Below are positions 7,084 to 40,747 of a stretch of DNA of 45,379 nt, piece by piece; position 1 is the first letter of the stretch, and each line of letters opens with the position of its first letter. The DNA is from Moraxellaceae bacterium (GTDB taxonomy: Bacteria; Pseudomonadota; Gammaproteobacteria; Burkholderiales; Rhodocyclaceae): positions 1-45,379 of the forward strand of contig JAVHYF010000031.1 in assembly GCA_031119205.1 (NCBI GenBank). The letters are read 5' to 3'. The position numbers were made by a program, and so were the translations under genes. The notes under the pieces were generated by a model that saw only the letters and a program-made list of their open reading frames with translations, ran no database searches and was not told where the DNA came from.

Positions 7084-10000
7084 GTGAGGCGACGAGCGCG
7101 GTCGAGCTTGCCGGCACCGTGCAGGCACGGCCCCTGACCGAGGCTCAGGCCGGCATCTGGTACGCGCAGCGGCTGGCGCCTGAGAACCCGGCCTACAACA
7201 CGGCCCACATCCTGTGGATCGACGGTGATCTGGATGTCGCGGCCTTCGTGGCTACAGCGAATCGCGCGGCGCAGGAAGCGCCGGCTCTGAGCCTGCGCAT
7301 CCGCGACGAAGAGGGCGGCCCGCAGCAGTGGGAGGACGCCGACTACCGTCCCGCCATCGAGGTCGTCGATCTCGGCACCGACGCAGACCCCGCAGCCACT
7401 GCCCGCGCGCAGATGCGCGCCGACTACCTGTCGCCGGTCGACCCCGGCCGCGACCGCCTGGCCCAGCAACGCCTGTTCGTGCTCGGCCCGCAGCGTTTCG
7501 CGTGGTACCTGCGCGTCCATCATCTGGTGACCGATGGTTATGGCATGGCCCTGTTCAGCGAACGCGTGTGCGCGCTGTACGGTGCTGCCGATGCCGGCTC
7601 GCCGCTGGGGCCGCTGGCGCCGGTGTTTGATGAGGACACGGCGTATCGCGCCTCCGACAAGCGCGTGCGCGATGCGGCCTACTGGCGCGAGCATCTTGCT
7701 GGCGTGCCGGCCGCTTCCGGCCTGGGCCCCGGCTTCGCGCCGCCTGCCGCCGAGGCGCTGCGCCTGGTGCGGCCGCTGGATGCGAGCCTGCGCGAGCGCC
7801 TGCTCGCCACCGCGGCACGACTCGGCCAGCCCTGGCCGGATCTGGTCACCGCGCTGACCGCCGACTATTGCCGACGTCATGCCGGCGTTGCCGAAGCGGT
7901 GCTCGGTGTGCCGGCCATGGGCCGGCTGGGCAGTGCCTCGGCCAGCGTGCCGGCGATGGTGATGAACGTGCTGCCGCTGCGTGTCGCGCAGTCGTCGGCG
8001 CCGGTGGAAGAATTCGTACGCAGTGTCGGCAGCGCCATGACGCGCGCGCGTCGTCACGGCCGCTACCGCAGCGAGCAGTTGCGACGCGACCTCGGCCTCG
8101 TCGGCGCACAGCGCCGCCTGTACGGCCCGCTGATCAACGTGCAGCCTTTCTACCAGCCGCTGCTGTTGCGTGGCGTCGCGCTGCGCACGGAGATCCTCAG
8201 CACTGGCCCGGTCGATGACGTGACCCTCGGTTTCCGTGGTGACGCGAAGACCCTGCTCGATCTGGAGGTCGAAGCCAACCCCTCGCTGTACACCCCGGCG
8301 CAACTGGAAGCGCATGGCGCCCGCCTGCCAGCCTTCCTGCATGCCGCGCTGGCGGCCTGCGATGCCGGTCGCAGCCTGGACGATGTACCGCTGGCCACGC
8401 CGGCCGAGACCGAGCATTTCCTCTACGCGGTGAACGACACCGCGCATGAGGTGCCGGACACCACGCTGGTCGCGCTGTACGAAGCACAGATGGCCGCCAC
8501 GCCGGATGCACCCGCACTGGAGTTCGAAGGCGAGGTGCTGAGTTACGCGCAACTGGAGCAACGCAGCCGTGCCCTGGCGCTGCAGCTGCGCGCTCAGGGC
8601 GTGGGCCGCGAGTCTGTCGTCGCGCTGGCCTTGCCGCGCTCGCTGGAACTGGTCATTGCCCTGCTGGCCGTGCAGCGTGCCGGTGGTGCCTACCTGCCGC
8701 TGGATCTGGCGCATCCCGATGCACGCCTGGCGCGCATTCTCGACTCCGCGCAGCCGGCCTGTGTGCTGGCCTTCGACGATGCAGTGGTGCGCTTCCCCGG
8801 CCGTGATGTGCTGACGCCTGCGCAGTGGTCGCGCGACAGCGCTGCCGCACTGGACGCCGACGTGCAGCCGCAGGACGCCGCCTACGTCATCTACACCTCC
8901 GGCTCCACTGGCGAGCCCAAGGGCGTGCTGATCGAGCACCGCGCCATCGTCAATCGCCTGGAATGGATGCGCACGCACTACGCCATCGGCGCGGGTGACC
9001 GCATCCTGCAGAAGACGCCGGCGACCTTCGACGTGTCGGTGTGGGAGTTCTTCCTGCCCTGTCTGTGCGGCGCGACCCTCGTTGTGGCGCCGCCGGACGC
9101 GCATCGCGATCCGCGCGCAATCGCGCAACTGATCCGCCAGCGCAACATCACCACGCTGCACTTCGTGCCGTCGATGCTGTCGGCATTCCTCGCGGCGCCG
9201 GACGCGCAGGGGCTGTCTGTGCAACGCGTTTTCGTCAGCGGCGAAGAGCTGGGTGCCGAGTTGCGCGACCGCTTCCACGCCACCATGCATGGCGAGCTGC
9301 ACAATCTTTACGGCCCCACCGAAGCGGCGGTCGACGTCAGCTACTGGCCTGCCGGCCCGGACGACCGCTCGCGGCCCGTGCCGATCGGCTTCCCGGTGTG
9401 GAACACCCGCTTGTACGTGCTGGACGGCCGCATGCGGCCGCTGCCGCCGGGCGTGGTCGGCGACCTGTACCTCGGTGGCGTGCAGCTGGCGCGTGGTTAC
9501 CTCGGCCGCGCCGACCTCACCGCCGAACGCTTCCTCGACGATCCCTTCGTGCCCGGTGCGCGCATCTACCGCAGCGGTGACGTGGCGCGCTGGCGTGCGG
9601 ACGGCGCGGTGGAATTCCTTGGCCGCAGTGATCACCAGATCAAGCTGCGTGGCCTGCGCATCGAACTCGGCGAGATCGAGGCCGCGGTGCGCTCGGCGCC
9701 CGGCGTCGCACGCGCCGAAGTGATGCTGCGCGACGACCGCCTCGTTGCCTACCTGCAAGGGGAGGGCGGGGCTGAAATCGACGAACAGGTGCTGCGCAGC
9801 CACGTCGCCGCACGCGTGCCGGATTACATGGTGCCGTCCGCCTTCGTGGCGCTGGCCGACTGGCCGCTGACCGCCAACGGCAAGCTGGACCGCGGCGCCT
9901 TGCCGGCGCCCGCGGTGCAGATGGGCGAGAGCGCGCCGCGCACGCCGACCGAACGCGAACTCGCCGCGCTGTACGCGCAGGTGCTGGAGCTGGATGCACA

Positions 10001-10988
10001 GGTCGGCGCGGAAGCTGATTTCTTCGGTCTCGGCGGCGACTCCCTGTCCGCTGTGCGCCTGCTGATGGAAATCCAGAAGCGCTGGCGTTGCGACCCGGGC
10101 CTCGGCGCGCTGTTCGCCACGCCCACGGTGGCCGCACTCGCCGCCCTGATCGACGCCCAGCCGGCGCAGGCCGACCACGGCCTCGCGCCGCTGATCCGCC
10201 TCGCGCCGGAAGTCACCGGTTCCACGCCGCTGTTCGCGGTGCATCCGGCTGGTGGCATCGCCTGGAACTACCGCGACCTCGCGCGTGCGCTGTCGCCGGC
10301 CCGCACGGTGTATGGCCTGCAGTCACCCGCGCTGGATCTGGCCGAACCGCTGCCGGAGAGCATCGCCGTGCTGGCCGCCGACTATGCGGACCGCATCGCG
10401 ACAGTTCACGCGGCCGGGCCGGTACATCTGGTCGGCTGGTCGGTGGGCGGCATCATCGCGCAGGCGATGGCGGTGGAGCTGGAACGGCGTGGCCGCGAGG
10501 TCGGCGTGCTGGCCTTGCTGGACGCTTACCCGGCGGAATGCTGGCGTGCCGAGCCGGAGCCGACGCCGGTCGCCGCGCTGCGCGCGCTGCTGGCGATTGC
10601 CGGCTACGACCCCGAGGCGCACCCGGAGCTGGACACGCGCGAGCGCGTCATCGCCTTCCTGCGTCGTGGCGACAGTGCGCTGGGCAACCTGCCGGAGCCG
10701 GTGCTGGATGGCGTGGTGCGTGCGGTGACCGGCACCAACCGCCTGGTGCGCGGCCATCATCACGTGGCCTGTGCGGCGACCGTGCTGCATATCCGCGCCG
10801 GCCGCGATCACGCGACCCGCCCGCACCTGCAATCGTCGCTGTGGGCACCCTATACGGCGAAGGTGGAAGCGGTTGAGCTGCCCTTCCTGCACGCCGAGAT
10901 GACCGGCCGCGACGCGGTGGCGCGCATCGCACCGCTGCTGTCGCAGCAGATGTCACGTCATGCCGACGTGACGAAAGGAAACGCATGA
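7080..10988 (+). CDS. entF: serine-activating NRPS, C-A-PCP-TE (EntF-like)
   Basis: 1302 residues. Order: condensation domain (about 15-440) with HHLVTDG at 147-153; adenylation domain (about 465-960) with [11 protein letters not shown] from 605, [20 protein letters not shown] near 743 and NGKLDR; carrier domain with GGDSL (Ser 988); thioesterase with GWSVGG (Ser 1121) and a C-terminal His near 1271. Aligning the pocket by eye to GrsA numbering gives D-V-W-H-F-S-L-V-D-K, the known EntF serine code. By family knowledge the enzyme condenses DHB with serine, and the thioesterase joins and releases the chains, giving a tri-DHB-serine macrolactone if it iterates as EntF does. A linear product is possible. 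The start overlaps the carrier stop by four bases. No MbtH-like gene is present nearby. Confidence 0.94.
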
Positions 10989-11740
10989 AACTGACCGGAT
11001 TCGAGGGTACGGTGGCACTGGTGACCGGTGCCGGTGGTGGCATCGGTGCAGCGCTGGTGCGCCTGTTGCAGGACAGCGGCAGCGTGGTGGTGGCGACCGA
11101 CATCACTGCACCGACGCAAAGTGCGGCTCAGCATGCCAAGGCGCTGGACGTGACCGATTCCGCCGCGGCGGACGCGCTGGTGGCACGCGTCGAGCGCGAC
11201 ATCGGCCCCATCGGCTTCGGCATCAACGTGGCCGGCGTGCTGCAGACCGGCACGGTGGACGCCATCAGCGACGCCGAATGGCGCCGCGTCTTCGCGGTGA
11301 ATGCCGATGGCGTGTTCCACGTATCGCGCGCGCTGGCCCGCGTCATGAGCCCGCGCAAGCGTGGTGCCATCGTCACGGTGAGCTCCAATGCGGCAGGCGT
11401 GCCGCGCCATGGCATGGCGGCCTACGCGGCGTCCAAGGCGGCGTCCACCATGTTCATGCGTTGCCTGGGGCTGGAGCTGGCGCCGCTGGGCATCCGCTGC
11501 AATATCGTGGCGCCCGGTTCCACGCTGACGCCGATGCAGACCGGCATGTGGGCAGACGACAGCGGCGCGGCGAAAGTCATCGCCGGCCTGCCGGAGATCT
11601 ACAAGGCCGGCATTCCGCTGGGCAAGCTGGCGACGCCCGAGGATGTCGCCAGCGCGGTGATGTTCCTGCTGTCCGACCAGGCCGGTCACATCGCCATGAC
11701 CGACCTGTATGTTGATGGCGGTGCAACTTTGCGCGCCTGA
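10985..11740 (+). CDS. entA: 2,3-dihydro-2,3-dihydroxybenzoate dehydrogenase
   Basis: 251-residue short-chain dehydrogenase. It oxidises the diol from EntB to 2,3-dihydroxybenzoate using NAD. The nucleotide-binding motif TGAGGGIG lies near the N-terminus, with NVAGV in the middle and the catalytic Ser (SSNAAG) and Tyr-x3-Lys (Y147, K151) in the expected places. [15 protein letters not shown] is the substrate-loop region typical of EntA/DhbA. The ATG overlaps the NRPS stop by four bases. Its identity rests on family features plus complete pathway context. Confidence 0.94.
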
Positions 11741-11757
11741 TCCTTCAGCGGTGTCGC

Positions 11758-11774
11758 CGGCAGGCTTGCTGCCG
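11758..11774 (+). repeat. intercistronic hairpin between synthesis and uptake genes
   Basis: CGGCAG-GCTTG-CTGCCG forms a 6-base perfect stem in the only sizeable gap (97 bases) in the operon, between entA and the binding-protein gene. There is no T-run, so it is not a classical terminator. It may set differential mRNA stability of the synthesis and transport halves. Confidence 0.35.
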
Positions 11775-11837
11775 TGGCACCATCGCGGGTTTGCGCGACG
11801 CCTGGCGCGGCGCACCCCAGTTTTCCCGAGGTTTTCG

Positions 11838-12944
11838 ATGAACAAGCGCGTTCCCCGTTTCGCTGCCCTCTGTGGCCTGCTGCTGTCCTTTGCGGCTGCC
11901 CTGCTGCCGGCGCATGCGGCAGAGATCACCGACCTGCGCGGTCGCAAGGTCACCGTGCCCGACCAGGTGCGCAAGATCTCCATCGACGATGGCCGCTACC
12001 TGGTGGCGCTGTCGCTGGTGCAGGCCGATCCGGTGAAGCCGCTGGCTGCCTGGCCGCGCGACATCCACCGCATCGGCGACGCGACCTACGCGCAGTTCGT
12101 CGAGAAATTCCCGGCCCTGCGCAACCTGCCGCAGGTCGCCAGCTCGGCAGGTACCTTCAGTCTGGAGGCCGTGCTGTCGGCCGCGCCGGATGTGGCGGTG
12201 GTGTCGCTGGGTGGCGGGCCCACCGACGCCCAGGTGCAGCAGCTGCAGGCGGCCGGCATTCCGGTGGTTTTCATCGACTTCTTCAACCAGCCCTTCGAGA
12301 ACCAGGAGCGCAGCCTGCGCATCCTCGGTCAGCTGACCGGTGGCTCGGCCAAGGCGGAGAGCTTCATCGAGTTCCGTCGCCAGCACCTGGAGAAGATCTC
12401 GCAGCGCGTCGCCAAGCTGCCTGCCAGCGCGCGGCCGACGGTGTTCCTCGAAGCGCACGCCGGCCTCACCGGCGACTGCTGCAACTCGGTCGGTCCCGGC
12501 AACGTCGGTGACTACATCGAGTTCGTCGGCGGCCACAACATCGGCGCGGACGTGCTGAAGGTGCCGGCCGGCAAGCTGAACCTCGAGTACGTGATGTCGC
12601 GCGACCCGAAGATCTACATCGCCACCGGCGGCGTGCATCTGGAAAAGGCCGGCGGCCTCGTGCTAGGCGCCGGCTATGACGTGGCACGTGCCCGCGCCGC
12701 GCTGCAGAAGATCAGCAAGCGCCAGGGCATCGCCCAGCTGAGCGCGGTGAAGAACGGCAACACCTTCGGCCTTGCGCACCAGTTGGTCAATTCACCGATC
12801 GACATCGTGGTGATCGAGGCCTTCGCCAACTGGGTGCATCCGGAGCTGTTCAAGGACGTCGACCCGGCCAAGACGCTGGACGAAATCAACAAGCGTTTCC
12901 TCGCCGTGCCCTATGTGGGAACGGGTTGGATCAGTCTGAAGTAA
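11838..12944 (+). CDS. periplasmic ferric-siderophore-binding protein of an ABC importer
   Basis: 368 residues. A signal peptide (MNKRVPRF, a hydrophobic run, then LPAHAAE) directs it to the periplasm. The body follows the class III binding-protein pattern (PF01497): ITDLRGRKVTVP near the mature N-terminus, SLEAVLSAAPDVAVVS, GIPVVFIDF, a long connecting helix, and DPKIYIATGG in the second lobe. It would hand the ferric siderophore to the adjacent permease. The ATG at 11838 is chosen because the frame upstream overlaps entA and lacks a signal sequence. An unusual CC pair (GDCCNS) lies in the middle. Specificity for the catecholate is inferred from the operon. Confidence 0.9.
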   Translation: MNKRVPRFAALCGLLLSFAAALLPAHAAEITDLRGRKVTVPDQVRKISIDDGRYLVALSLVQADPVKPLAAWPRDIHRIGDATYAQFVEKFPALRNLPQVASSAGTFSLEAVLSAAPDVAVVSLGGGPTDAQVQQLQAAGIPVVFIDFFNQPFENQERSLRILGQLTGGSAKAESFIEFRRQHLEKISQRVAKLPASARPTVFLEAHAGLTGDCCNSVGPGNVGDYIEFVGGHNIGADVLKVPAGKLNLEYVMSRDPKIYIATGGVHLEKAGGLVLGAGYDVARARAALQKISKRQGIAQLSAVKNGNTFGLAHQLVNSPIDIVVIEAFANWVHPELFKDVDPAKTLDEINKRFLAVPYVGTGWISLK

Positions 12945-12948
12945 GCCC

Positions 12949-14040
12949 ATGAGCAGCGGAATGCATGCCCAGCCGCGGGCTGGTGCACAACCGGCGGCGA
13001 CGGCCGAAGAGGTCCTAGCGCAGTACCGCCGGCTGGTCGGTCGCCGTATCGCCATCGTCGCGGGACTCGCGCTGGCCTGTATTGCCGCTTTCGCGCTGGA
13101 CCTGGTGACCGGCCCGTCCGCGCTGACCGCGATGCAGGTGCTGGGTGGCGTGATCTCGCCCGACAGCCTGACGCCGCCGCAGGCCGCCATCGTCTGGCAG
13201 GTGCGCCTGCCTTACGCGCTGATCGCGGTGCTGGTCGGTGCTGCGCTGTCGCTCGCCGGTGCGGAGATGCAGACCATCCTCAACAATCCGCTGGCCAGCC
13301 CCTTCACGCTGGGCGTGTCGTCCGCCGCATCCTTCGGCGCGGCGCTGGCCATCGTGTCCGGCATCAGCCTGCCTTTCATTCCGGTCGACTGGATGGTGCC
13401 GCTCAACGCCTTCGCCTTCGCATTCGGCTCCGTGTTGCTGTTGCAGTTGATGGCCAGTCGCCGTGGTGCGGGCGTCGAGACGGTGGTGCTGCTGGGCATC
13501 GCGCTGGTGTTCGCCTTCAACGCACTCGTTGCGCTGATGCAGTTCGTGTCCTCGCAGGAAGCGCTGCAGCAGCTGGTGTTCTGGAGCATGGGCTCGCTGT
13601 CGCGTGCGACCTGGGGCAACGTCTGGGTGCTGGGCCTGGTGCTGTTGCTGGTGACGCCGTTCTCCATGCTGGCAGCCGGTCGCCTGACCTCGCTGCGCCT
13701 CGGTGAAGACCGCGCACGCAGCTTCGGTGTCGATGTCGGCCGCCTGCGCTTCATGGCCTTGCTGCGCGTCAGCCTGCTGGCGGCGACCTCGGTGGCCTTC
13801 GTCGGTACCATCGGCTTCATCGGCCTCGTCGGCCCGCACATGGCACGCCTGCTGCTAGGCGAGGATCACCGCTTCCTGCTGCCCGCCAGCGTGCTGTGCG
13901 GCGCGCTGATCATGTCGCTGGCCTCCGCCGCCAGCAAGGCCATCGTTCCCGGCGTGCTGATGCCGGTGGGCATCGTCACGGCGATTGTCGGGGTGCCGGT
14001 GTTCCTGTTCCTGATCTTCCGCCGCCCGGAGCGTTCCTGA
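12949..14040 (+). CDS. FecCD-family ABC permease
   Basis: 363 residues. After a soluble N-terminal stretch of about 45 residues come roughly ten hydrophobic helices. The family blocks RLPYALIAVLVGAALSLAGAEMQ-type 'R(L/I)PR' segment, NNPLASPFTLGVSSAASFGAAL, and the C-terminal GTIGFIGLVGPHMARLLLGEDHRFLLP are all present. It forms the membrane channel for ferric siderophore import. It starts four bases after the binding-protein stop and overlaps the ATPase start by one base. Only one permease gene is present, whereas E. coli uses the FepD/FepG pair, so a homodimer as in BtuC is inferred. Confidence 0.93.
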   Translation: MSSGMHAQPRAGAQPAATAEEVLAQYRRLVGRRIAIVAGLALACIAAFALDLVTGPSALTAMQVLGGVISPDSLTPPQAAIVWQVRLPYALIAVLVGAALSLAGAEMQTILNNPLASPFTLGVSSAASFGAALAIVSGISLPFIPVDWMVPLNAFAFAFGSVLLLQLMASRRGAGVETVVLLGIALVFAFNALVALMQFVSSQEALQQLVFWSMGSLSRATWGNVWVLGLVLLLVTPFSMLAAGRLTSLRLGEDRARSFGVDVGRLRFMALLRVSLLAATSVAFVGTIGFIGLVGPHMARLLLGEDHRFLLPASVLCGALIMSLASAASKAIVPGVLMPVGIVTAIVGVPVFLFLIFRRPERS

Positions 14041-14858
14041 TGGAGGCCACCGCCGTGCGTGAAGACAGCCTGCAGGTCAGCCACCTGTCCACTGGCTACA
14101 GCGACCGCAAGGTCATCCAGGACCTCGATCTCCCGGTGTTCCGTGCTGGCGAAGTGCATTCACTGGTCGGCCCCAACGCTGCCGGCAAGAGCACGCTGAT
14201 GCGCGCGCTGGCCGGCCTGCAGAAGGCCACCGGTTCGGTACGCCTGGGCGGGCAGGAGCTGATCGGCCTCAGCCTCGCCGAACATGCCCGACGCGTCACC
14301 TACATGCCGCAGACCTTGCCGCAGGGTGTAGCGCTGTCGGTGCTGGAGAGCCTCGTCGCCGCGCTGCGTGCGTCGGCCATCGGCGAGCGCAGCGAGAGCC
14401 ACGACGCGGCCGAACGCCGCGCGGTGGCGGTGCTGGAGCGCGTCGGCATTCTGCACCTGGCGCTGGAAGGTCTCGACCATCTTTCCGGCGGGCAGCGCCA
14501 ACTGGTGTCGCTGGCCCAGGCGCTGGCGCGCGAGCCGCGCGTGCTGCTGCTGGACGAACCGATCTCCGCACTCGACCTGCACCATCAACTGCGCGTGATG
14601 CGCCTGGTGCACGACCTCGCGCGTGAGCGCGGCATGATCGTGCTGATGGTGCTGCACGACCTGCAGATCGCAGCGCGCTGGTCCGATGGCATCGTCATGC
14701 TGTCGCGCGGTGCCGTGTCCGCCACCGGCAAGCCGGCCGAGGCGATCACGCCGGAAGCACTGGCGCGGGTGTACGGTGTGCAGGCACGCGTCGAGCATTG
14801 CTCGCGTGGTGGCCTGCAGATCATGGTCGACGATGTCGTGACCGCGGACGCGATGTGA
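14040..14858 (+). CDS. ABC transporter ATPase for ferric siderophore uptake
   Basis: 272 residues with a complete ATPase core: Walker A GPNAAGKST, Q-loop in TYMPQTLPQ, signature LSGGQRQLVSLAQAL, Walker B VLLLDEPISALD, and the switch His in VLHDLQIA. It belongs to the FepC/FecE group. The start overlaps the permease stop by one base and its stop overlaps the following esterase start by one base (TGATG). It completes a binding protein-permease-ATPase importer; the outer-membrane TonB-dependent receptor is not in this window. Confidence 0.94.
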   Translation: MEATAVREDSLQVSHLSTGYSDRKVIQDLDLPVFRAGEVHSLVGPNAAGKSTLMRALAGLQKATGSVRLGGQELIGLSLAEHARRVTYMPQTLPQGVALSVLESLVAALRASAIGERSESHDAAERRAVAVLERVGILHLALEGLDHLSGGQRQLVSLAQALAREPRVLLLDEPISALDLHHQLRVMRLVHDLARERGMIVLMVLHDLQIAARWSDGIVMLSRGAVSATGKPAEAITPEALARVYGVQARVEHCSRGGLQIMVDDVVTADAM

Positions 14859-15700
14859 TGACCACGCTGCCGGACTGGGAGCCCGTCGTCCTGACACGGG
14901 CGCAAACGCGCCTCTGGCCTGCGGCAACCAATGGCCAGCAGTACCGGGTCAGCCTGTGGTTGCCCTCCGGTCCGGCACCTGAAGGCGGTTTCCCGGTGGT
15001 GGTCGTGCTGGACGCCAACGCGATGTTCGTCAGCTTCACAGAGGCCGTGGCGCGCATGTCGCGCCGTGTCGATGCGACCGGCATCGTGCCGACCGCCGTC
15101 GTCGGCATCGCCCACGCCGAAGAAGATCTGTACGTCGATGCGCTGCGCCGTCGTGACTACACCAACGGACCGCAGGGCGGCGGTACCCCGCACGGTGGTG
15201 CGGACGCCTTCCTGTCCTTCATCCTCGACGAAGTGTTGCCTGCCTTGCAGGCGGAGGCACCGCTGTCGGCCTCTCGTCGCACGCTGTTCGGTCATTCGCT
15301 CGGTGGCTTCTTCACGCTGCACGCGCTGAGCGCGCGTCCGGCGGAGTTCGAGCTGTTCGCCGCCATCAGCCCGTCGGTGTGGTGGGACGAGGCCGGCATC
15401 CGCGAGCGTCTGTCGCGACTGGACCATCCGCAGGTGCGCAGCTTCCTGTGTGTCGGCGAGTGGGAAGGCGAAGTGCCGCCCTGGCAACGCAGCGCGCCGG
15501 GTTACGCGGAGCTGGTCGAACGCCGTGCGCAGCGCGGCATGCTGGCGAACGCCGAGTCGGTCGGCGCGCTGCTGCGCGAGCGGCTGGGTGAGGCACGCGC
15601 GGCCTTCCACCTGTTCCCCGGCGAGGACCACGCTTCGGTGGTCATGATCGCCACCCAGCGCGTACTGCGTTTCGCGTCTGTCCCGTCCCTCGGCGGTTGA
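14858..15700 (+). CDS. cytoplasmic siderophore esterase, Fes/IroE-like
   Basis: 280-residue alpha/beta hydrolase with VVVLDAN, a nucleophile motif GHSLGGFF (Ser near 147), ISPSVWWDE and a late catalytic His in FPGEDHASV. This layout matches the IroE/BesA/Fes group that hydrolyses trilactone siderophores to release iron. No signal peptide is present. It is the last gene of the operon and starts in the ATPase stop codon, so its synthesis is coupled to import. Together with the Tat-exported relative at 185-1093 this gives one esterase predicted on each side of the inner membrane. Confidence 0.88.
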   Translation: MTTLPDWEPVVLTRAQTRLWPAATNGQQYRVSLWLPSGPAPEGGFPVVVVLDANAMFVSFTEAVARMSRRVDATGIVPTAVVGIAHAEEDLYVDALRRRDYTNGPQGGGTPHGGADAFLSFILDEVLPALQAEAPLSASRRTLFGHSLGGFFTLHALSARPAEFELFAAISPSVWWDEAGIRERLSRLDHPQVRSFLCVGEWEGEVPPWQRSAPGYAELVERRAQRGMLANAESVGALLRERLGEARAAFHLFPGEDHASVVMIATQRVLRFASVPSLGG

Positions 15701-32256: not shown

Positions 32257-34131
32257 ATGAAACCTTCATTCCTGCGCTGGCTCGCGATGAGCCTTTGCCT
32301 TGCCTGGATCCACACAGGCATGGCCGCCGAACTGGCCTCGGCGCGCATCGCGGAAATCACGTCCTGGTTGCCGCCCACGCCCCGGGGCCTGGGGCCTGTC
32401 TGTGCGGATCGGCCAGCCTGGTCGGCAGTGGTGGCGAGCGGGCGCGTGCAGGGCGTCGTGGCGGCTGCCGACAAATTGCTCGGCCAGCCTTTCCCGTCCT
32501 GGGACGATGACGCCTACCGCGAGTTCTCGCGCAACGGCCAGCGGGTGCGTGGCGAGCGCATGATGAATGCTCGCAAGGCCTGGTTGTTGCCATTGGTGCT
32601 GGCCGAGTGTCTGCAATGGGACGGCCGCTATCGCGAGGCACTTGCCACCACTCTGCGCGAACTGGCGACACAGCCTTCGTGGAGCTGGCCGGCGCATGAC
32701 AAGAGCCTGCGCAACCTGCGCGGCGACTACGAGGTGGATCTCTTCGCAGCCGACCTCGCGCATGAGCTTGCACAAGCACTGTACATGCTGGGTGATCGCG
32801 TCGACGAGGCCACGCGACAGCAGGTAGTTGCCGCACTGGAGCAGCGTGTCTTCGCGCCGATGCGGCGCAGTTTCGCCAGCGGTCGCGACCACTGGTGGCT
32901 GAAGGCCGATCACAACTGGAACGCGGTGTGCCTGAAGGGAGTCGTGGCCGCCGCATTGACCCTGCAGGATTCGCGCGAAGAGCGGGCCTTGTTCGCCGCG
33001 GCTGGCGAGCACTACATCCGCCGTTATGTGGAAGGTTTTGCGGCTGACGGTTACACCACGGAGGGCCCGGGCTACTGGAACTACGGCGTATCGCACTTCG
33101 CCGAGCTGCACGCGGCGTTGTGGCAGGCCAGCGGCGGTCGCATCGACCTGTTTGCGGAGGAGCCCGCCAAGGTGCGGGCGATTGCCTTGTACGGTGTGCG
33201 CATCGAGATGCGGCCCGGCAACAGCGCGGCTTTCAGCGATGCATCACCGACCACCCGCATGGACGATTTCACCCGTGCCTATACCAACGAGGTGCTGGGC
33301 CTCGGCTTGCCCTTCCGGCTGGCGGCCTTGCCGGTCACGCCGCAGCAGGCGCCGAACAATGCGCCGCTGGCCACGGCAGCCTTGCTGCTGTCGGCCGCTC
33401 CGCCCGCCCGGGTGGCCCCACCCAGCGACGAACCCGGGCTGCGCAGCTACTTCGACCAAGTGGGTGTCCTTGTCACGCGACCACGGGAGGGCGGACGCCT
33501 CGCGGCCAGTATCAAGGCCGGTGGCAATGGCAACCACAGCCATAACGACATCGGCAGCTATGCGATTGGGCTGGGCAGTGAACAGCCGGTGGGCGACGTC
33601 GGCCGCCCGCAGTACACGGCGCGCACCTTCGGGCGTGAGCGCTACAGCATCCGGGCGATCAACTCCTACGGTCACCCGGTACCGCTGGTGGCAGGCACCC
33701 TGCAGCGCGAAGCCACCACGGTGAAGCCGCAGGTGCTCGTCACCCGTTTCGGGGACGAGGCCGACAGCATCGAGATCGACCTGGCGAGCGCCTATGCCGT
33801 GCCGGCGCTGCGCAACCTGACCCGCCAACTGCGTCATGATCGTGCCGCGGATGCTATCAGCATCGAAGACCGGTTCCGCTTCGACAGCCCGCAGGCGTTC
33901 GAGCTCGCGATCACCACGCTGGGAAGCTGGCGCAGGCGCGAGGATGGTCTGCTCGAATTCCGTCGCCGAAACGAGTCCTTGCTGGCCCGGATCGAAGCGT
34001 CTGCAAGCTTCGACCTCGTCGAGGAGCGCATCGACGAGGAGGGCCTGAGCTTCACGCGTCTTGCTGTCCGCCTGCGCGAGCCAGCGACCGAAGGCTTCGT
34101 CCGCCTGCACTACACGCCGACAGCACGCTGA
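32257..34131 (+). CDS. secreted heparinase II/III-family polysaccharide lyase-like protein
   Basis: 624 residues with a signal peptide ending near MAAEL. The N-terminal half is an alpha-barrel type region with LKADHNWNAVCLKG and YTTEGPGYWNYGVSHF. The C-terminal half is a beta-sheet domain opening with the family's GGNGNHSHNDIGSYAIG block, where the His and Asn help catalysis or metal binding in heparinase II, PL15 and PL17 enzymes. The family cleaves acidic polysaccharides (heparin-like, alginate-like) by beta-elimination. Exact substrate cannot be told. No transporter or sugar-utilisation genes surround it; turnover of the cell's own exopolysaccharide is one possibility. It is divergent from comM and convergent with the GDT1-family gene. 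Confidence 0.87.
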   Translation: MKPSFLRWLAMSLCLAWIHTGMAAELASARIAEITSWLPPTPRGLGPVCADRPAWSAVVASGRVQGVVAAADKLLGQPFPSWDDDAYREFSRNGQRVRGERMMNARKAWLLPLVLAECLQWDGRYREALATTLRELATQPSWSWPAHDKSLRNLRGDYEVDLFAADLAHELAQALYMLGDRVDEATRQQVVAALEQRVFAPMRRSFASGRDHWWLKADHNWNAVCLKGVVAAALTLQDSREERALFAAAGEHYIRRYVEGFAADGYTTEGPGYWNYGVSHFAELHAALWQASGGRIDLFAEEPAKVRAIALYGVRIEMRPGNSAAFSDASPTTRMDDFTRAYTNEVLGLGLPFRLAALPVTPQQAPNNAPLATAALLLSAAPPARVAPPSDEPGLRSYFDQVGVLVTRPREGGRLAASIKAGGNGNHSHNDIGSYAIGLGSEQPVGDVGRPQYTARTFGRERYSIRAINSYGHPVPLVAGTLQREATTVKPQVLVTRFGDEADSIEIDLASAYAVPALRNLTRQLRHDRAADAISIEDRFRFDSPQAFELAITTLGSWRRREDGLLEFRRRNESLLARIEASASFDLVEERIDEEGLSFTRLAVRLREPATEGFVRLHYTPTAR

Positions 34132-35026: not shown

Positions 35027-35353
35027 ATGAGCGTGCAGGACACCATCCGCGAAACCGTCACCAACAACCCCGTCGTGCTGTACATGAAGGGCACGCCGAG
35101 CTTCCCGCAGTGCGGCTTCTCCGCCACCGTGGCGCAGATCCTGAAGCTGTCCGGCGTCACCGAGTACGCATCGGTGAATGTGCTGGCCGACGACGAGATC
35201 CGCCAGGGCATCAAGGAATACGCCAACTGGCCGACCATCCCCCAGCTCTACATCAAGGGCGAGTTCGTCGGTGGTTGCGACATCGTCAAGGAGATGTACC
35301 AGGCCGGTGAGCTGCAGACCCTGCTGAAGGACGCCGGCATCACGACCGCCTGA
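35027..35353 (+). CDS. grxD: monothiol glutaredoxin GrxD
   Basis: 108 residues. The active site is the monothiol CGFS (Cys near 29) in [14 protein letters not shown]; downstream are [19 protein letters not shown], with the TIPQ cis-Pro loop and GGCD glutathione-binding turn. Such proteins carry [2Fe-2S] clusters bridged with glutathione, often with BolA, and serve iron-sulfur trafficking. The ATG at 35027 has GGAG eight bases upstream; the longer open frame reaches into the riboswitch region and is rejected. A clear terminator follows. Confidence 0.96.
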
Positions 35354-35425: not shown

Positions 35426-36517
35426 TCAGGGCTGATCGGTCTGCAGCGGCTGACCTGCGTCGCTGACGCGCATCCAGGCCTTGCGCAGCAGATGCTGCGT
35501 CAGCAGCTTCGGTGGCATGCGCAGCCAGTGCGCGCGGATGTACAGCGCCTCGCGCGCCAGCGGTGTCAGCAGGTCCTTGGTGGAGCTGTGCAGCGGCGTG
35601 AAGATGCGCTTGTACATCTGGTCGCGCAGCAGACGCTGCAGCATGTTGCCGGCATGCGGGGACAGTGCATGCGTGACTGCGGCGGGAACGGCCACACCCA
35701 GCACGCGGGCGAGGTAGCGCAGGGCCAGCGCCAGCACTTCGCAGAGGTTGTGGCGGTGCGCCTGTTCCACCAGGCGGTGCCAGAAGTCCGGGTCGGCTGC
35801 GAGGAATTCCGCGATCAGGCTGCGCAGGTCCACCAGGTCACGCAGTGCGTTGTCGCCTTCCCCTTCGTGGAAGAGGTGGGTGGCGGAGTGCAGCACCATG
35901 TCGGCCGGGGACAGAACCGCCAGCCCGGGCCAGTCCGCCAGCGCACGCGCATTGGCGACCAGCGCGGCGGGGTCGGGGTGGGCCCGCGAGGTCGGCGGCA
36001 GGATGGTGTGGTGCACGTCCACCACGCTGCCGCGCTGCAGGTGCTGCATGGGCGGCAGTTCGTGCATCCATTCGCGGTAGTAGCGCTGGTTGTAGGCGTC
36101 AGTCTCGCCGCTGACCCAGCCAGCCAGCATCAGCGCGGCCTCGGCCTGGGCCAGTTGCCCGTGCGGCACCAGCAGGTCGACGTCGGCAAAGACCCGGCCA
36201 CGCGCAGCGTTCAGGTCGGCGAGCACATACGCCGCGCCCTTGAGCAGCACGGGCCGGATGCCGGTGGCATTGAGTGCTGACGCCAGTTCCTGCGCTTCGT
36301 GGCGGACCGATTGCTGCTGCCGCTCGGCCAGCCGTGCGCCGGCCAGCAGGTGCACCTGCGCGACCTCCGGTACCGAGGGCATGTCGTGCAGCAGATCGTG
36401 CAGATGCCCCAGCAGGTTGGCGTGACGCGCCTGGCGGATCAGCAGGTCCCATTGCGACAGGCTCAGCGAGGCTGCCGTGGCAGGCTCGCGCAGGGCCCGC
36501 AGCAGCAGGACCCTCAT
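35426..36517 (-). CDS. nucleotidyltransferase family protein of the HPr-rel-A gene set
   Basis: 363 residues, last gene of a four-gene operon. The central block LLKGAAYVLADLN...GRVFADVDLLVP carries the D-x-D type metal-binding pair of the nucleotidyltransferase fold (PF14907-like), followed by VDVHHTILPP and LSPADMVLHSATHLFHEGE, also typical. Such proteins are predicted to move a nucleotide or a related group onto a protein or small molecule, but the substrate of this type is unknown. Its start overlaps the upstream kinase-like stop by four bases. The long helical C-terminus (about 230-363) is Leu- and Arg-rich. Confidence 0.85.
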   Translation of the reverse strand: MRVLLLRALREPATAASLSLSQWDLLIRQARHANLLGHLHDLLHDMPSVPEVAQVHLLAGARLAERQQQSVRHEAQELASALNATGIRPVLLKGAAYVLADLNAARGRVFADVDLLVPHGQLAQAEAALMLAGWVSGETDAYNQRYYREWMHELPPMQHLQRGSVVDVHHTILPPTSRAHPDPAALVANARALADWPGLAVLSPADMVLHSATHLFHEGEGDNALRDLVDLRSLIAEFLAADPDFWHRLVEQAHRHNLCEVLALALRYLARVLGVAVPAAVTHALSPHAGNMLQRLLRDQMYKRIFTPLHSSTKDLLTPLAREALYIRAHWLRMPPKLLTQHLLRKAWMRVSDAGQPLQTDQP

Positions 36518-37437
36518 GCCGCTTGCTCCACGGCACCAGCCAGCTCGTCGAAGCAGGCGATGGCTTCGTCCAGATAACCGTACTCGAAGCGCCAGGCCGG
36601 CGCACCATCAAGCAAGGCGCACAAGGCCGAAAAGCCATGCTGACCCTGGATGTGATAGTTGAACGCGTTGTCCGCCAGCGCCAGCAGTGCCTCGGCCGGT
36701 GCCATCGGGGTGAGGCGTGCAGGTGCGTCGGCGACGTACTTCGGGAACACCACCCAGGCGGGGCGCCGCAGCCGGGCGACCGCGGCGACGCTGCCGGCCG
36801 GGGGACGCAGCAGGGCCACCGTTCCCTTGGTGGTGTCCAGATAGGGGCCGCACACTTCGACTTCTGGGGCGAAGCGACGGATCACGGAGATCGAGGCGTT
36901 CTTCAGGTTGATCGGTCGCGCCAGTCCGTGCAGCAGGCCAGTGGCTGGATCCAGCAGGGCCAGCTCGTCCGACAGGAGGTCCCAACCGGACAGTGCCAAT
37001 GCAGCGCACAGCGTGCTCTTGCCGGAGCCGGCCGGTGCCGGCATCACCACGGCGCGGTCGCCGCGCCCCAGCACGGCCGCGTGCAGCATCAGCAGGTGGT
37101 TGGCGTAGCCGGCGATGCACCAGTTCAACCCCCATTCCAGCATCGGCATGGCCTGGTCGGCCGGCAAGGGCTTGAAGGGCTCCAGCCCGTCGACGACGAA
37201 GCGGACCTGCGGCCGCACGAAACGCCGCAAGTTGCGGCCGGGGAGGATAGCGACGTGGAAGTCGATGAAGTCGTCGTCGCCCCGCAGCGGATGCGCTGCA
37301 TAGAGGCGACCGATGCCTTCTGCCAGATCCCGCTGCGGGCTTTGCACGCGGAAGGCGAAAGGTCCTGCGGCGAAACGCAGGCCGGCACCGGCGAGACGCG
37401 CTCGCAAGGCCGATGGCGACAGGTCGGCGACGATCAT
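36514..37437 (-). CDS. HPr-kinase-related kinase (HprK-related kinase A)
   Basis: 307 residues. A P-loop PAPAGSGKST (Lys 140) follows the HAAVLGRGDRAVV strand; LLSDELALLD at about 154-163 provides the acidic metal-binding pair, and KYV and DNAF blocks lie near the C-terminus. This resembles the HprK/P C-terminal kinase domain and matches the 'HprK-related kinase A' type known from gene neighbourhoods with a PqqD-like protein. True HPr kinases phosphorylate a Ser of HPr; no HPr or PTS gene is nearby, so the target is probably another protein. It overlaps both neighbours by four bases. Confidence 0.87.
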   Translation of the reverse strand: MIVADLSPSALRARLAGAGLRFAAGPFAFRVQSPQRDLAEGIGRLYAAHPLRGDDDFIDFHVAILPGRNLRRFVRPQVRFVVDGLEPFKPLPADQAMPMLEWGLNWCIAGYANHLLMLHAAVLGRGDRAVVMPAPAGSGKSTLCAALALSGWDLLSDELALLDPATGLLHGLARPINLKNASISVIRRFAPEVEVCGPYLDTTKGTVALLRPPAGSVAAVARLRRPAWVVFPKYVADAPARLTPMAPAEALLALADNAFNYHIQGQHGFSALCALLDGAPAWRFEYGYLDEAIACFDELAGAVEQAA

Positions 37438-37718
37438 GCGCCGGATTGTGCCAGTAGCCGGGCTTGTAGCAGTGTGTCGAGTGCCGCGTCGAAGGCTTCG
37501 TCGGAGAGGCCTTCGCTCAGGGCGTCGGCACGCAGGGCAGCAAGGTCGAGGCCCCTGGCGGGCGCCTGCTGCACGGTTTCATAGAGCCAGCGGGTGGCGC
37601 CGTGGAGTACATGGGTACTGCCGGGGCCCGGAAGGAAGACAGCGAGTGCGTCGCCCAGAACGTGGGCCAGTGGGGTCAGGCCGTCAGGCGTTTGTGCGGC
37701 GGGGGCGTGCAGGCGCAC
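37434..37718 (-). CDS. PqqD-like protein of the HPr-rel-A gene set
   Basis: 94 residues from the GTG at 37718, which has GGGGG just upstream; a GTG at 37742 would add eight residues and overlap the preceding gene by 11 bases. The sequence LGDALAVFLPGPGSTHVLHGATRWLYETVQQ resembles the PqqD fold, a small winged-helix peptide chaperone that presents precursor peptides to modifying enzymes. The acidic-helical C-terminus (LSDEAFDAALDTLLQARLL) also fits. Its stop overlaps the kinase start by four bases. By analogy it would bind the N-terminal part of the secreted protein encoded just upstream, but that is inference. Confidence 0.75.
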   Translation of the reverse strand: MRLHAPAAQTPDGLTPLAHVLGDALAVFLPGPGSTHVLHGATRWLYETVQQAPARGLDLAALRADALSEGLSDEAFDAALDTLLQARLLAQSGA

Positions 37719-37731
37719 GCCACCCCCGTGA

Positions 37732-38283
37732 TCAGAGCTCACCCGTGGTGTGCTTGAGGTAGCTGAGAAGCTGTGCCGTGGTCCAGGTTACGCCGGGAGT
37801 CGGGCTGTAGTTGCCGGTGCGGTACTGCCACATCTTGCGGACTTCGGTGGGGCTGGACGGCGTGCGGTTGTTGAGTGCATTGAGGTAGGCTGCCACGATG
37901 TACTTCTCGCATTCGGTGCGTGCGGAACCGGGGGCAATGCAGCTGAGCAGCGTGGTCGTGGTGTCGCTGCCGCTGGTCGCTCCGGACAGCGAGGACAGCT
38001 TCGTGACGCTGCGGTCGCAAGGCCAGGTGCCGGTGGTGTACCACTCGCTCGGCTTCTTCCCCATCTTGCTGTCCTTGCAGGTGAATGCTTCAGGACGGCT
38101 GAGGTTGCCGGAGATCGAAAACCCGGAGGGTTGCTTGCAGGTCGCGTAGGCGGGGCGACCGGCCAGGGTCAGCAGCAGCGGACCGGTTGCCAGACCGCCC
38201 TGGATCAGGCGGCGGCGGCCAGCGGCCGGCAGTTGCGGCGTGGTGCTTTCTTGCGACGGGCTGTCGATTTCTGGCTTTTGCAT
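37732..38283 (-). CDS. secreted Cys-containing protein with Tat-like signal, first gene of the HPr-rel-A-type operon
   Basis: 183 residues from the ATG at 38283. A polar leader of 22 residues precedes RRRLIQGG (23-30), a hydrophobic run and a PAYA cleavage site near 47, giving a Tat-like signal. The mature part has five Cys (49, 69, 89, 115, 125), a Ser/Thr-rich middle and a conserved-looking C-terminal half: ECEKYIVAAYLNALNNRTP, then MWQYRTGNYSPTPGVTWT and a final LLSYLKHTT. I know no named domain for it. Being first in a tightly coupled set with PqqD-, kinase- and nucleotidyltransferase-like genes, it is the obvious candidate target of modification. An upstream in-frame start to 38403 is possible but would bury the signal. 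Confidence 0.78.
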   Translation of the reverse strand: MQKPEIDSPSQESTTPQLPAAGRRRLIQGGLATGPLLLTLAGRPAYATCKQPSGFSISGNLSRPEAFTCKDSKMGKKPSEWYTTGTWPCDRSVTKLSSLSGATSGSDTTTTLLSCIAPGSARTECEKYIVAAYLNALNNRTPSSPTEVRKMWQYRTGNYSPTPGVTWTTAQLLSYLKHTTGEL

Positions 38284-38536: not shown

Positions 38537-39442
38537 TCAGTGTGAGAGATCCATCGCCAGCCGTTCGGCCATGCGCTCGGCCTGGGCCAGATAGCTTCGG
38601 CCAAACGTGTTCAGATGGTTGAGCACATGGTAGAGGCTGTAGAGCGGCTTGCGCCGCTCGTAGCCTTCGTCCAGCGGCCAGGCCTTGCGGTAGGCGGCAT
38701 AGAAAGGCAACGGGAAGCCGCCGAACAGCTCGGTCATGGCAAGGTCGGCTTCGCGATCGCCGTAGTGCACGGCCGGGTCGAACAAGGTCAGGCGAGGGCC
38801 GTCCGGGCCGTCGGTGATGGCGGCGTTTCCGCTCCACAGGTCGCCATGCAGGAGGCTGGGGCGTGGCCGGTACTCGAGAAAAAGGGCGCTGGCACGCTCG
38901 GCGATCTGCTCGCCAAGTTGTTGGAGGCGGCCGCGATGCCCCTGCGAGGCCGCCAGCGTGAGCTGTGGCTGCAGGCGACGCTGTACGAAGAAGCGGGCCC
39001 AGCTGTCCTGCGGCGTGTTGGCCTGCGGGCTGTGTCCGATGTAGTTGTCGCGGGACCAGCCGTAGCGCGTGCCCTCCTGTCGATGGAGCTCAGCGAGCGC
39101 GGCACCCGCGCGACGGCCGGTTTCGTCGCCGGTTAGCGGACGCAGGTCCAGCCACTCCAGCAACAGGGCGGCCTGATCGGCTGCCTGGCCCAGTGTGAGC
39201 ACGCGGGGCACGCGGATGGCCGGGCATTGGCCGAGGGCGCTGAGGCCGTCGGCCTCCGCCGCGAAGACGTCCTGCTCGGCCGCCGGACGGAGCTTCAGGA
39301 AGTAGTCACCATCGTTGCCTGTGACGCGCAGGCAGGCATTGATGTCGCCGCCACTGACGGGGCTGAGGTCGCGCAGGCGGAAGCCTGTACCGGTGACCGA
39401 GCGGACCAGGGTTTCTATATCGCCGCGCAGGGTCGGGTTCAT
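38537..39442 (-). CDS. fructosamine kinase family protein
   Basis: 301 residues, the family length. VSGGDINACLRV and DYFLKLRPA form the nucleotide-binding N-lobe, LLLEWLDL the hinge, and the catalytic LLHGDLWSGN with LFDPAVHYGDREADLAM supplies the aminoglycoside-kinase-like active site. By family knowledge these enzymes phosphorylate sugars attached to protein amines, starting repair of glycated proteins; bacterial members mostly act on ribulosamines or erythrulosamines. It is followed closely downstream of a Ser/Thr kinase gene (9 bases), suggesting co-transcription, without an obvious shared pathway. Confidence 0.93.
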   Translation of the reverse strand: MNPTLRGDIETLVRSVTGTGFRLRDLSPVSGGDINACLRVTGNDGDYFLKLRPAAEQDVFAAEADGLSALGQCPAIRVPRVLTLGQAADQAALLLEWLDLRPLTGDETGRRAGAALAELHRQEGTRYGWSRDNYIGHSPQANTPQDSWARFFVQRRLQPQLTLAASQGHRGRLQQLGEQIAERASALFLEYRPRPSLLHGDLWSGNAAITDGPDGPRLTLFDPAVHYGDREADLAMTELFGGFPLPFYAAYRKAWPLDEGYERRKPLYSLYHVLNHLNTFGRSYLAQAERMAERLAMDLSH

Positions 39443-39451
39443 GGTGGACAG

Positions 39452-40747
39452 CTATGGGTGCGTGAGCCGGACGTTGGCGGCTGCCAGGCGTTCCGCCAGC
39501 GTGTCGAGGAAAGCGCGATAGAAGCGCATCTGGCAACCGCTGGACGCCCGCGCCACGGCTTCTGCGCGCAACTCGACGAAGGTGCAGTCGGAGTCGGCGA
39601 TGACATCCGCGCTGCGGGTGCCGGGATGGGAGCCGAACAACGACATCTCGCCGAAGCATTCGCCCACCGATAGCCGGTGCAGCCGCTGGCCTTGCGAGCA
39701 GACGGCGGCCTGGCCGTGGGCGAGGATCGCCACGTAGTGGCCGGGCTCGCCCTCGCGCATCACCAGCGTGCCGGCCGCGACTTCGCGCCATTCGGCGAGG
39801 CGCAGCACCTCCCAGATCTGCACGTCGTCGAACTGGCGGAAGAAGGGCATGCCGCGCAGGGTCTGGAAGCGGTGGGTCTCGGAGTGTGGTTGTGATTGCG
39901 CGACGAGGCGCCGGTTGCGGGCCGCCTGGGCGAGGTCGTGCGAGAACTCCAGCCAGCTCTGGTAGCGTGCCGACAGCGACTTGTGCATGGCGCGGGCGCA
40001 GATCTCGTCCAGCGCGGGCGGGACCTCCGGCCGCAGGCTGGAGGGTGGCGGTGCATCGAGATTGCTGATCTTCCAGGCGAGGCTCAGGTGGTTGTCCGTC
40101 TCGAAAGGCAGGCGCCCGGTCAGCAGCTGGTACATCACCACGCCCAGCGAATAGATGTCCGTCTGATGGTTCAGGGTGGCGTCGCGCACCTGTTCCGGTG
40201 ACATGTAGGCCGGCGAGCCCAGGCCCATCACCAGCGTACGGTCGGCGTCATGGAAGATCGCCGCACCGAAGTCCGACACCTTCACCTCACCACCGTCCGG
40301 GTCGCTCAACAACAGGTTGCCGGGCTTGATGTCGCGGTGGGTCACCCCCTGCAGGAAGGCGTACTCCAGCGCGCGGGTGCATTTGAAGAGGATTTCGATC
40401 AGGCGGTCGAAAGGCAGCAGGTTCTCCGGCCGGCAGAACTGCTCCAGCGTGCCGCCGGGCACGTACTCCATGGCGAGGTAGGCCTCGCGCTCGGTCACCG
40501 CCGCGTCGTACACCTGCACGATGTGCGGGTGGATCAGCCGGCTGGCGAGCGAGGCCTCGGTCAGCAGCTGCTGGCGATGTGCCTGCGCGCGCTGCGGATC
40601 CCGCAGCACCTCGGCGAACACTCGCTTGAGGGCGATCGAGCGTTGCGCGAAGGGGTCGCGAGCGAGGTAGACCGCGCTGGTGGCGCCTTCACCCAGCAGG
40701 CTCTGGATCTCGTACTTGCCGATGCGCTCCACCAGTTGCACGGTCAT
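39452..40747 (-). CDS. Ser/Thr protein kinase fused to a cyclic-nucleotide-binding domain
   Basis: 431 residues. The Hanks-type kinase domain (about 11-275) is complete: LGEGATSAVY, Lys 41, Glu 64, HRDIKPGNLL (Asp 139), DFG 159-161, GSPAYMSPEQ and DIYSLGVVMYQLLTG. A linker leads to a C-terminal cNMP-binding fold (about 295-420), with the phosphate-cassette-like block GECFGEMSLFGSHPGTRSADV keeping Gly-Glu and the Arg that holds the cyclic phosphate. There is no membrane segment. Cyclic AMP or GMP control of kinase activity is inferred. It lies between a DUF1304 gene (one base apart) and a fructosamine-kinase gene (nine bases). Confidence 0.92.
   Translation of the reverse strand: MTVQLVERIGKYEIQSLLGEGATSAVYLARDPFAQRSIALKRVFAEVLRDPQRAQAHRQQLLTEASLASRLIHPHIVQVYDAAVTEREAYLAMEYVPGGTLEQFCRPENLLPFDRLIEILFKCTRALEYAFLQGVTHRDIKPGNLLLSDPDGGEVKVSDFGAAIFHDADRTLVMGLGSPAYMSPEQVRDATLNHQTDIYSLGVVMYQLLTGRLPFETDNHLSLAWKISNLDAPPPSSLRPEVPPALDEICARAMHKSLSARYQSWLEFSHDLAQAARNRRLVAQSQPHSETHRFQTLRGMPFFRQFDDVQIWEVLRLAEWREVAAGTLVMREGEPGHYVAILAHGQAAVCSQGQRLHRLSVGECFGEMSLFGSHPGTRSADVIADSDCTFVELRAEAVARASSGCQMRFYRAFLDTLAERLAAANVRLTHP

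Follow-up and report, generated by a model that had tools for sequence, protein, structure and literature searches.

Organization of the Locus

The DNA analyzed here, referred to as the window, is a 45,379-nucleotide stretch (positions 1–45,379) of contig JAVHYF010000031.1 of a Moraxellaceae bacterium (assembly GCA_031119205.1). A set of four adjoining genes, from 38283 to 35426 on the minus strand, encodes a secreted protein, a PqqD-like protein, a kinase related to HPr kinase (HprK), and a nucleotidyltransferase-fold protein. The secreted protein is very probably the substrate of this cassette. The best explanation of the four genes, held with moderate confidence, is that a serine in a conserved box of a protein exported by twin-arginine translocation (Tat) would be phosphorylated under the guidance of the PqqD-like protein, and that the phosphate would then be modified. 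The features are listed below.

37732..38283, minus strand: secreted protein of type A, the proposed substrate, 183 residues (ATG at 38283, stop at 37732)
38143..38283, minus strand: leader, residues 1–47, with a hydrophilic N-terminus, R23-R24-R25, a hydrophobic stretch, and AYA (alignment and leader hidden Markov model, HMM)
38098..38139, minus strand: Ser box, residues 49–62 (C49, S53, S58), the proposed modification site (column invariance and motif shuffles)
37434..37742, minus strand: PqqD-like protein, 94 or 102 residues, a predicted leader-binding element, that is, a recognition element (RRE) of ribosomally synthesized and post-translationally modified peptides (RiPPs) (TIGR04353 match below cut-off, structure model, and PDB match)
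36514..37437, minus strand: HprK-related kinase A, 307 residues (TIGR04352, aligned relatives, and HprK profile match)
35426..36517, minus strand: PF14907 nucleotidyltransferase-fold protein, 363 residues (PF14907 and aligned rows)
35027..35353, plus strand: Grx4-family monothiol glutaredoxin, convergent neighbor (profile search)

The initial annotation had placed four minus-strand genes at these coordinates with overlaps of 4, 4, and 0–11 nucleotides, and this arrangement is confirmed. The kinase and transferase genes each share a 4-nucleotide ATGA overlap with the preceding gene. The PqqD-like gene starts either at GTG 37742, overlapping the secreted-protein gene by 11 nucleotides, or at GTG 37718 with no overlap. 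All four genes score above their antisense frames by codon usage; the training set contained the kinase and transferase genes, and the independent test is provided by the secreted-protein and PqqD-like genes (scores of 40 and 21). Profile searches of the genome gave one match each for the kinase, PF14907, and TIGR04353.

Kinase and Transferase

The P-loop kinase related to HprK and the nucleotidyltransferase-like protein of the initial annotation were both verified by profile searches. The kinase scores 373 bits against TIGR04352 (HprK-related kinase A; cut-off of 200), and the transferase scores 177 bits against PF14907 (gathering cut-off of 31.2). Residues H119, G137, G139, K140 (Walker A), D157, and E158 are kept in all 29 aligned kinases, and the kinase profile aligns the region of these residues with the HprK structure 1jb1 at an E-value of 0.0035. 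In the transferase, L92-K93-G94, R108, D112, and D114 are kept in 108 of 108 aligned rows, giving the pattern LKG...R...DxD.

A similar trio has been described for lasso peptides. According to two reviews (PMC9266682, PMC8498205), B1 proteins bind the leaders, the HprK homologue PadeK of paeninodin phosphorylates the C-terminal Ser of the precursor, and in pseudomycoidin PsmK is the phosphorylating enzyme and one or two hexoses are attached to the phosphorylated Ser by PsmN. PMC9266682 also gives a His-Lys-Asp-Asp motif for the lasso kinases; the window kinase differs in having Glu where that motif ends in Asp. By analogy with lasso peptides, a box Ser of the Tat-exported protein would be expected as the target of the cassette.

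The best explanation has a variant in which Ser or phospho-Ser would receive a nucleotide, adenosine or uridine monophosphate (AMP or UMP), from the transferase, with no sugar involved. The nucleotidyltransferase name of PF14907 and the kept LKG...R...DxD residues fit this variant, and according to PMC9266682 PsmN may instead nucleotidylate, with a host glycosyltransferase acting later. Hexoses, not nucleotides, are nevertheless what PMC9266682 and PMC8498205 report on pseudomycoidin, and the variant is considered somewhat unlikely.

Conservation of the Cassette

The kinase was detected above its cut-off in 41 of 369 genomes of a class sample, spread over 28 families, and in 61 of 398 genomes of a phylum sample; the two samples share a few genomes. 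Gene neighborhoods were compared in 110 kinase loci. Of these, 30 come from class genomes and 80 are the best-scoring of 584 relatives, a choice that makes the 80 lean toward the kinase of the window. The 110 include at least two pairs (L004/L116 and L005/L052) that represent the same place in two collections. The 80 relatives are nearly all Beta- or Gammaproteobacteria; L043, L047, and L058 are labelled only Proteobacteria, and L060 is labelled Rhizobium.

A leader-bearing protein was found by HMM in 109 of the 110 loci, where 55 of the 109 matches are seeds, the HMM having been built from 54 upstream proteins plus that of the window. The substrate gene lies downstream of the transferase gene in L078, L086, L090, and L111. 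A PqqD-like gene was found in 107 of the 110 loci with an HMM seeded with 72 sequences, and L029 and L104 have candidates identified by eye. The transferase is present in 109 loci, on the kinase strand in 107 and divergent in two; the contig of L096 ends too soon. Since the four-gene set recurs in other genomes, it is more than a chance arrangement.

A profile of the secreted proteins, A2, matches 41 of the 369 class genomes, the same number as the kinase, and 34 genomes are common to both (Fisher p = 3e-34); A2 was partly built from the same loci, and the informative figure is the seven A2 matches in 328 genomes without the kinase. The A2 match lies near the kinase on the same contig in 33 of the 34 shared genomes; the exception is G015, where a body domain on a different contig gives the match. 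Among the seven A2-positive genomes without a kinase over the cut-off, three (G184, G285, and G360) show a weaker match of the HprK type no more than about 1 kb away, the matches in G080, G099, and G215 are to body domains, and that in G084 was not recovered on fetching. Seven kinase genomes were missed by A2: six contain the type B substrates described below (G134, G286, G091, G213, G314, and G303), and in G259 the contig is cut short. Homologues of the secreted protein therefore do not usually stand without the other genes, a check that the initial annotation had proposed, given that the kinase is found in 34 of the 41 A2-positive genomes.

Leader, Ser Box, and Body of the Secreted Protein

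The initial annotation described this protein as secreted and Tat-like, with five Cys. The five Cys are present, as are RRR at residues 23–25, a hydrophobic stretch, and AYA preceding Thr48-Cys49; the RR pair, hydrophobic stretch, and A-x-A were recognized by eye and in alignments, and TatC is present in the genome. The generic Tat-signal models of NCBIfam and Pfam give no match. Two of the five Cys, C49 and C69, are conserved at 90% or more in aligned type-A proteins, together with W81, A131, and L134, and the other three Cys fall below this level. The only invariant columns among the 50 aligned proteins are M1, R23, R24, S53, and S58 (window numbering); this alignment, from which A2 was made, holds 50 of 74 non-redundant substrates, and the omission of 24, many of them divergent, biases the invariance to the main group.

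Against the leader profile, the secreted protein of the window, itself part of the training set, scores 43.0 bits, vs 5.4 bits for the ordinary Tat signal of another protein of the window (185–1093). The RR pair occurs in 98–100% of the 139 aligned leaders, counted over those with a residue there. Ahead of A-x-A lies a T-L-x-S-x-P stretch in which T, L, S, and P are each found in 68–78% of the same leaders. An earlier leader profile that included seven type B leaders gave 19 further matches among the phylum loci at E < 0.001.

The body of the protein is confidently predicted, with block means of 92–97 for the predicted local distance difference test (pLDDT) over residues 81–180. It has no fold match in the PDB (best E of 2.5) or among viral models (best E of 1.7), and the protein matches no NCBIfam or Pfam family at an E-value of 1. 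Known families were also considered for the substrate bodies in general and rejected: NCBIfam gave only matches below cut-off, for nine leader-bearing proteins, and the four Pfam families obtained each match one of 50 members (E of 0.017–0.1) and were taken as chance.

The type-A body domain recurs without the leader on the C-terminal side of other secreted-looking proteins in L202 (650 residues), L205 (479 residues), and L204 (290 residues), and in a protein of L206 that is cut by the contig end. G296 has an additional substrate (L207), an orphan that carries both leader and box and is distant from the kinase. A tandem pair of substrate genes precedes a single PqqD-like/kinase set at L093:4182-5614.

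Substrate Types

Judged from their sequences, the secreted proteins have the leader and the Ser box in common, and not one body. Behind the leader, 99 of 105 type A proteins contain the box Cxx(x)S[GASVC]xx(x)S, compared with a mean of 1.6 and a maximum of 8 when the part behind the leader was shuffled. The 105 are drawn from 110 rows after removal of four type B proteins and L030 (cut by a contig end), with four row starts reset by hand. The six type-A proteins that miss the pattern look like near variants (e.g., SNMMSG).

Type B proteins carry the same kind of leader and a body with no visible likeness to type A, many of them ending in [ST]CWxS[FL] or similar. The type B box, C..S[FLIMVA] in the last 28 residues, is found in 30 of 33 proteins (shuffled mean of 0.71) and in 22 of 25 in the subset below 50% identity (shuffled mean of 0.60). 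The 33 proteins come from 22 of 28 phylum-search loci, from seven fetched regions, and from four loci of the set of 110; 22 of the phylum-search loci lie in another class of the phylum, probably Alphaproteobacteria. L119, L121, and L135 were excluded because their bodies are of type A, and L136, L137, L143, L190, and L194, with no leader hit, are uncounted. The two boxes are nearly exclusive: the C-terminal box occurs in none of 105 type-A proteins, and S[GAS]xx(x)S[GAVN] behind the leader in two of 32 type-B proteins.

In a kinase tree of 147 tips, a single branch parts 108 type-A tips from 33 type-B tips. The tree was built from 155 sequences, with six duplicate or partial loci removed and identical sequences merged. 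It is midpoint-rooted and the root falls on the A/B branch, so that no support value is printed for it; part of the type labels were assigned manually.

Two further systems, designated type C (L195:1084-3641 and L196:2274-4756), contain a divergent HprK-like kinase (72–85 bits to TIGR04352, below the cut-off), a PqqD-like gene, and short Tat-leader peptides, three of them in L196.

These proteins also bear on a different reading, in which the secreted protein is only a carrier and the boxed segment is cut out after modification as a small RiPP-like product. The resemblance of the enzymes to the lasso-peptide tailoring set described in the two reviews would suit such a carrier, as would the shortness of some leader-bearing proteins (L025, with 74 residues, and the type C peptides) and a gene for a trypsin/HtrA-like protease, below all cut-offs, near the cassette in 21 of 80 loci. 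The confidently predicted body of the window protein, the recurrence of its domain in larger secreted-looking proteins, and the absence of a match to the lasso protease domain PF13471 in the genome argue against it, and the carrier reading is judged quite improbable.

PqqD-like Protein

The PqqD-like small protein of the initial annotation is supported by its position and by an RRE-like predicted fold. Its TIGR04353 score of 27.9 bits is under the cut-off of 35, so it is called PqqD-like here and not a member of TIGR04353; the name rests on weak similarity, position, and predicted fold. The structure model (pLDDT of 84, 60 sequences) has three strands followed by three helices, as in known RREs. 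The best PDB match by Foldseek is the complex of the lasso RRE TbiB1 with a leader (5v1v; probability of 1.00, template modeling scores of 0.64/0.72, E of 0.025), and RRE-bearing RiPP enzymes and another lasso B1 protein rank lower. The model thus appears to resemble the leader-binding RREs of lasso peptides. A match to a SelB wing (E of 0.005, below cut-off) was set aside as a winged-helix resemblance. In L090 the PqqD-like domain and the kinase form one open frame of 443 residues (one assembled contig).

An alternative is that the two enzymes serve sensing or regulation through some other target in the cell, with the secreted protein as a travelling client. HprK itself is regulatory, and the evidence that ties the enzymes to the box is indirect. 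Conservation of the leader and box although the bodies differ, the RRE-like partner, and the single PqqD-like/kinase frame of L090 speak against such a client, and this alternative is regarded as decidedly improbable.

Link to XrtA and Neighboring Genes

XrtA, of the XrtA/PEP-CTERM exopolysaccharide (EPS) system, scores over its cut-off in 35 of 41 kinase genomes and in 38 of 328 others in the class sample (Fisher p = 1.4e-22, uncorrected for relatedness). The link is weaker in the phylum sample, with XrtA in 25 of 61 kinase genomes and 10 of 337 others (p = 2e-15). XrtA and the kinase are on one contig, about 29–107 kb apart, in 11 of the 35 genomes (G107, G122, G124, G213, G237, G247, G309, G322, G335, G338, and G348), and 11–45 kb apart in five more from the phylum sample (G393, G675, G700, G709, and G753). 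The remaining genomes with both have them at greater distances or on separate contigs. An obligate partnership with XrtA was rejected, since kinase genomes without XrtA over its cut-off exist.

In 27 of 80 loci, no more than 6 kb separate the cassette from a relative of a polysaccharide gene of the XrtA/PEP-CTERM system, a figure that has no control rate from other loci. Representatives of these neighbor clusters match TIGR03027, TIGR03007, TIGR03018, and TIGR02917 over cut-off; the greedy clustering was dominated by antisense frames, and only clusters with a representative identified by profile or by eye were used. In 30 other loci of the 80, with no overlap with the XrtA-EPS set, at least one of hemA, prfA, prmC, and grxD is nearby; these four genes were named by eye, from the sequences of L041. 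In the window, grxD adjoins the transferase gene, and a glutaredoxin homologue is near the cassette in 26 of 80 loci. This neighbor is probably context and outside the system.

The trypsin/HtrA-like serine protease gene mentioned above (e.g., L040:8030-8863) is in the XrtA setting in 19 of its 21 loci. Its representative gives several model matches, all below cut-off, and the protease is possibly a processing enzyme.

Proposed Mechanism

The cassette, the family assignments, the RRE-like predicted fold, the conserved leader and boxes, and the genomic links are computed results, and every binding, catalytic, export, and matrix step that follows is inferred. In the proposed pathway, the PqqD-like protein would act as an RRE that binds the leader of the substrate, a leader that would double as the carrier of the Tat-like motif. 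The HprK-like kinase would then phosphorylate one or both of Ser53 and Ser58, which lie in the box next to the leader; by these analyses a box Ser is the likely modification site. The PF14907 enzyme may modify the phosphate, a step given an even chance, most likely by adding a sugar, the reported activity of PsmN on pseudomycoidin, or else a nucleotide. The protein would be exported by Tat and its leader cut at A-x-A. The decorated protein would act outside the cytoplasm, perhaps with an XrtA-linked exopolysaccharide matrix; such a role in this lineage is proposed tentatively, at somewhat less than even confidence. The sequence of holding by the PqqD-like protein, modification, and Tat export had been put forward in the initial annotation, and it gains indirect support from the conserved cassette, the RRE-like predicted fold, the leader profile, and the Ser boxes, with modification and export left as predicted steps. 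Beyond that annotation, the present analysis adds the Ser box, the division of the substrates into two types, and the association with XrtA.

Several results weigh against the best explanation. The genomic association would also be expected from a regulator or an unrelated client, the single A/B split of the kinase tree would be expected from vertical inheritance alone, and the shuffles control for composition, not for common descent. L088 has a kinase and a transferase and no recognized substrate or PqqD-like gene, and the type C relatives have no PF14907-type transferase within the fetched stretch. The window protein was unmatched in seven of seven genomes of the same genus (single-sequence search; the kinase was not sought there), so the cassette, or at least the secreted protein, is patchy. 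The PqqD-like protein scores below the curated cut-off, and Foldseek gave its model nothing at an E-value of 0.001 or better, the best being 0.025, and no PqqD-titled chain among the 50 matches listed. To these are added the missing match of the secreted protein to generic Tat-signal models and the possibility that the PF14907 enzyme could simply nucleotidylate. With respect to XrtA, no match over the cut-off exists in 36 of the 61 phylum-sample genomes that have the kinase. These 36 all lie outside the class of the window, and the 25 of them with examined loci comprise 22 of type B and three without a leader hit. The XrtA gene of the window genome is on another contig than the cassette.

If the best explanation is correct, lasso-peptide-type enzymes would also modify full-size exported proteins, and a phosphate-linked modification would precede Tat export in many Proteobacteria. 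A secreted protein and the biofilm polysaccharide of XrtA type would also have a candidate connection at the molecular level. The idea is testable, since each of the two Ser boxes points to particular residues. A broader and unlikely proposal is that of a general route for adding phosphate-linked sugars to exported proteins, in which an RRE would read a dual leader/Tat signal, the kinase would form phospho-Ser in a movable box (beside the leader in type A and C-terminal in type B), and a phosphodiester-linked sugar built by the transferase would anchor or prime XrtA exopolysaccharide. If true, this route would carry RRE-guided tailoring beyond peptides, to entire exported proteins of the matrix.

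Other Features of the Window

A cluster resembling those for catechol siderophores lies at 3331–15700 and includes a chorismate-binding enzyme, an AMP ligase, an isochorismatase, a short-chain dehydrogenase, a periplasmic binding protein, and an esterase; a large open reading frame at 7080–10988 resembles a nonribosomal peptide synthetase by eye only. A secreted-looking protein of 624 residues (32257–34131) looks by eye like heparinase II/III or alginate lyases, and it has no Pfam or NCBIfam match at 1e-3. At 38537–40747 a fructosamine kinase gene adjoins that of a Ser/Thr kinase with a cyclic-nucleotide-binding domain; by eye, a similar Ser/Thr kinase precedes the cassette in Zoogloea loci.

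Comparison with Known Systems

Among openly licensed papers, none was found to mention the HPr-rel-A system by name, any of its models, or PF14907, and NCBIfam notes may already mention substrates or the XrtA link. The openly licensed literature gave no paper joining an exosortase with HPr kinase, and for PEP-CTERM, HprK, and PqqD together it gave one 2011 paper, on another system.

The kinase resembles HPr kinase/phosphorylase (1jb1, 1kkl, and 1kkm) in its P-loop with matching His, Lys, and Asp, and differs in the weak, local nature of the similarity (E of 0.0035), in Glu as the second acidic residue, and in its operon. The resemblance to the HPr-rel-A system of NCBIfam (TIGR04352 kinase and TIGR04353 PqqD-family chaperone), suggested in the initial annotation, holds for the kinase, which is well over its cut-off with a PqqD-like gene directly upstream, whereas the PqqD-like protein itself is below the TIGR04353 cut-off. 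The XrtA/PEP-CTERM exopolysaccharide system is linked to the cassette through co-occurrence in the class sample and, in 27 of 80 loci, through XrtA-EPS genes at a distance of up to 6 kb. In contrast to that system, the substrate has by eye no PEP-CTERM anchor at its end, and the cassette and XrtA of the window genome are on separate contigs.

A lasso peptide proper was rejected because the B2 transglutaminase-like protease PF13471 is unmatched in the genome, and the window substrate further differs from lasso precursors in being a 183-residue protein with a Tat-like leader. The cassette is like the systems for phosphorylated and phosphoglycosylated lasso peptides, as presented in the two reviews, in combining an HprK-like kinase, an enzyme annotated as a nucleotidyltransferase, and a PqqD-like B1/RRE protein, and type B proteins share with lasso precursors a conserved Ser near the C-terminus. 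The cassette appears to be a form of RRE-guided kinase/transferase tailoring, here predicted for exported proteins.

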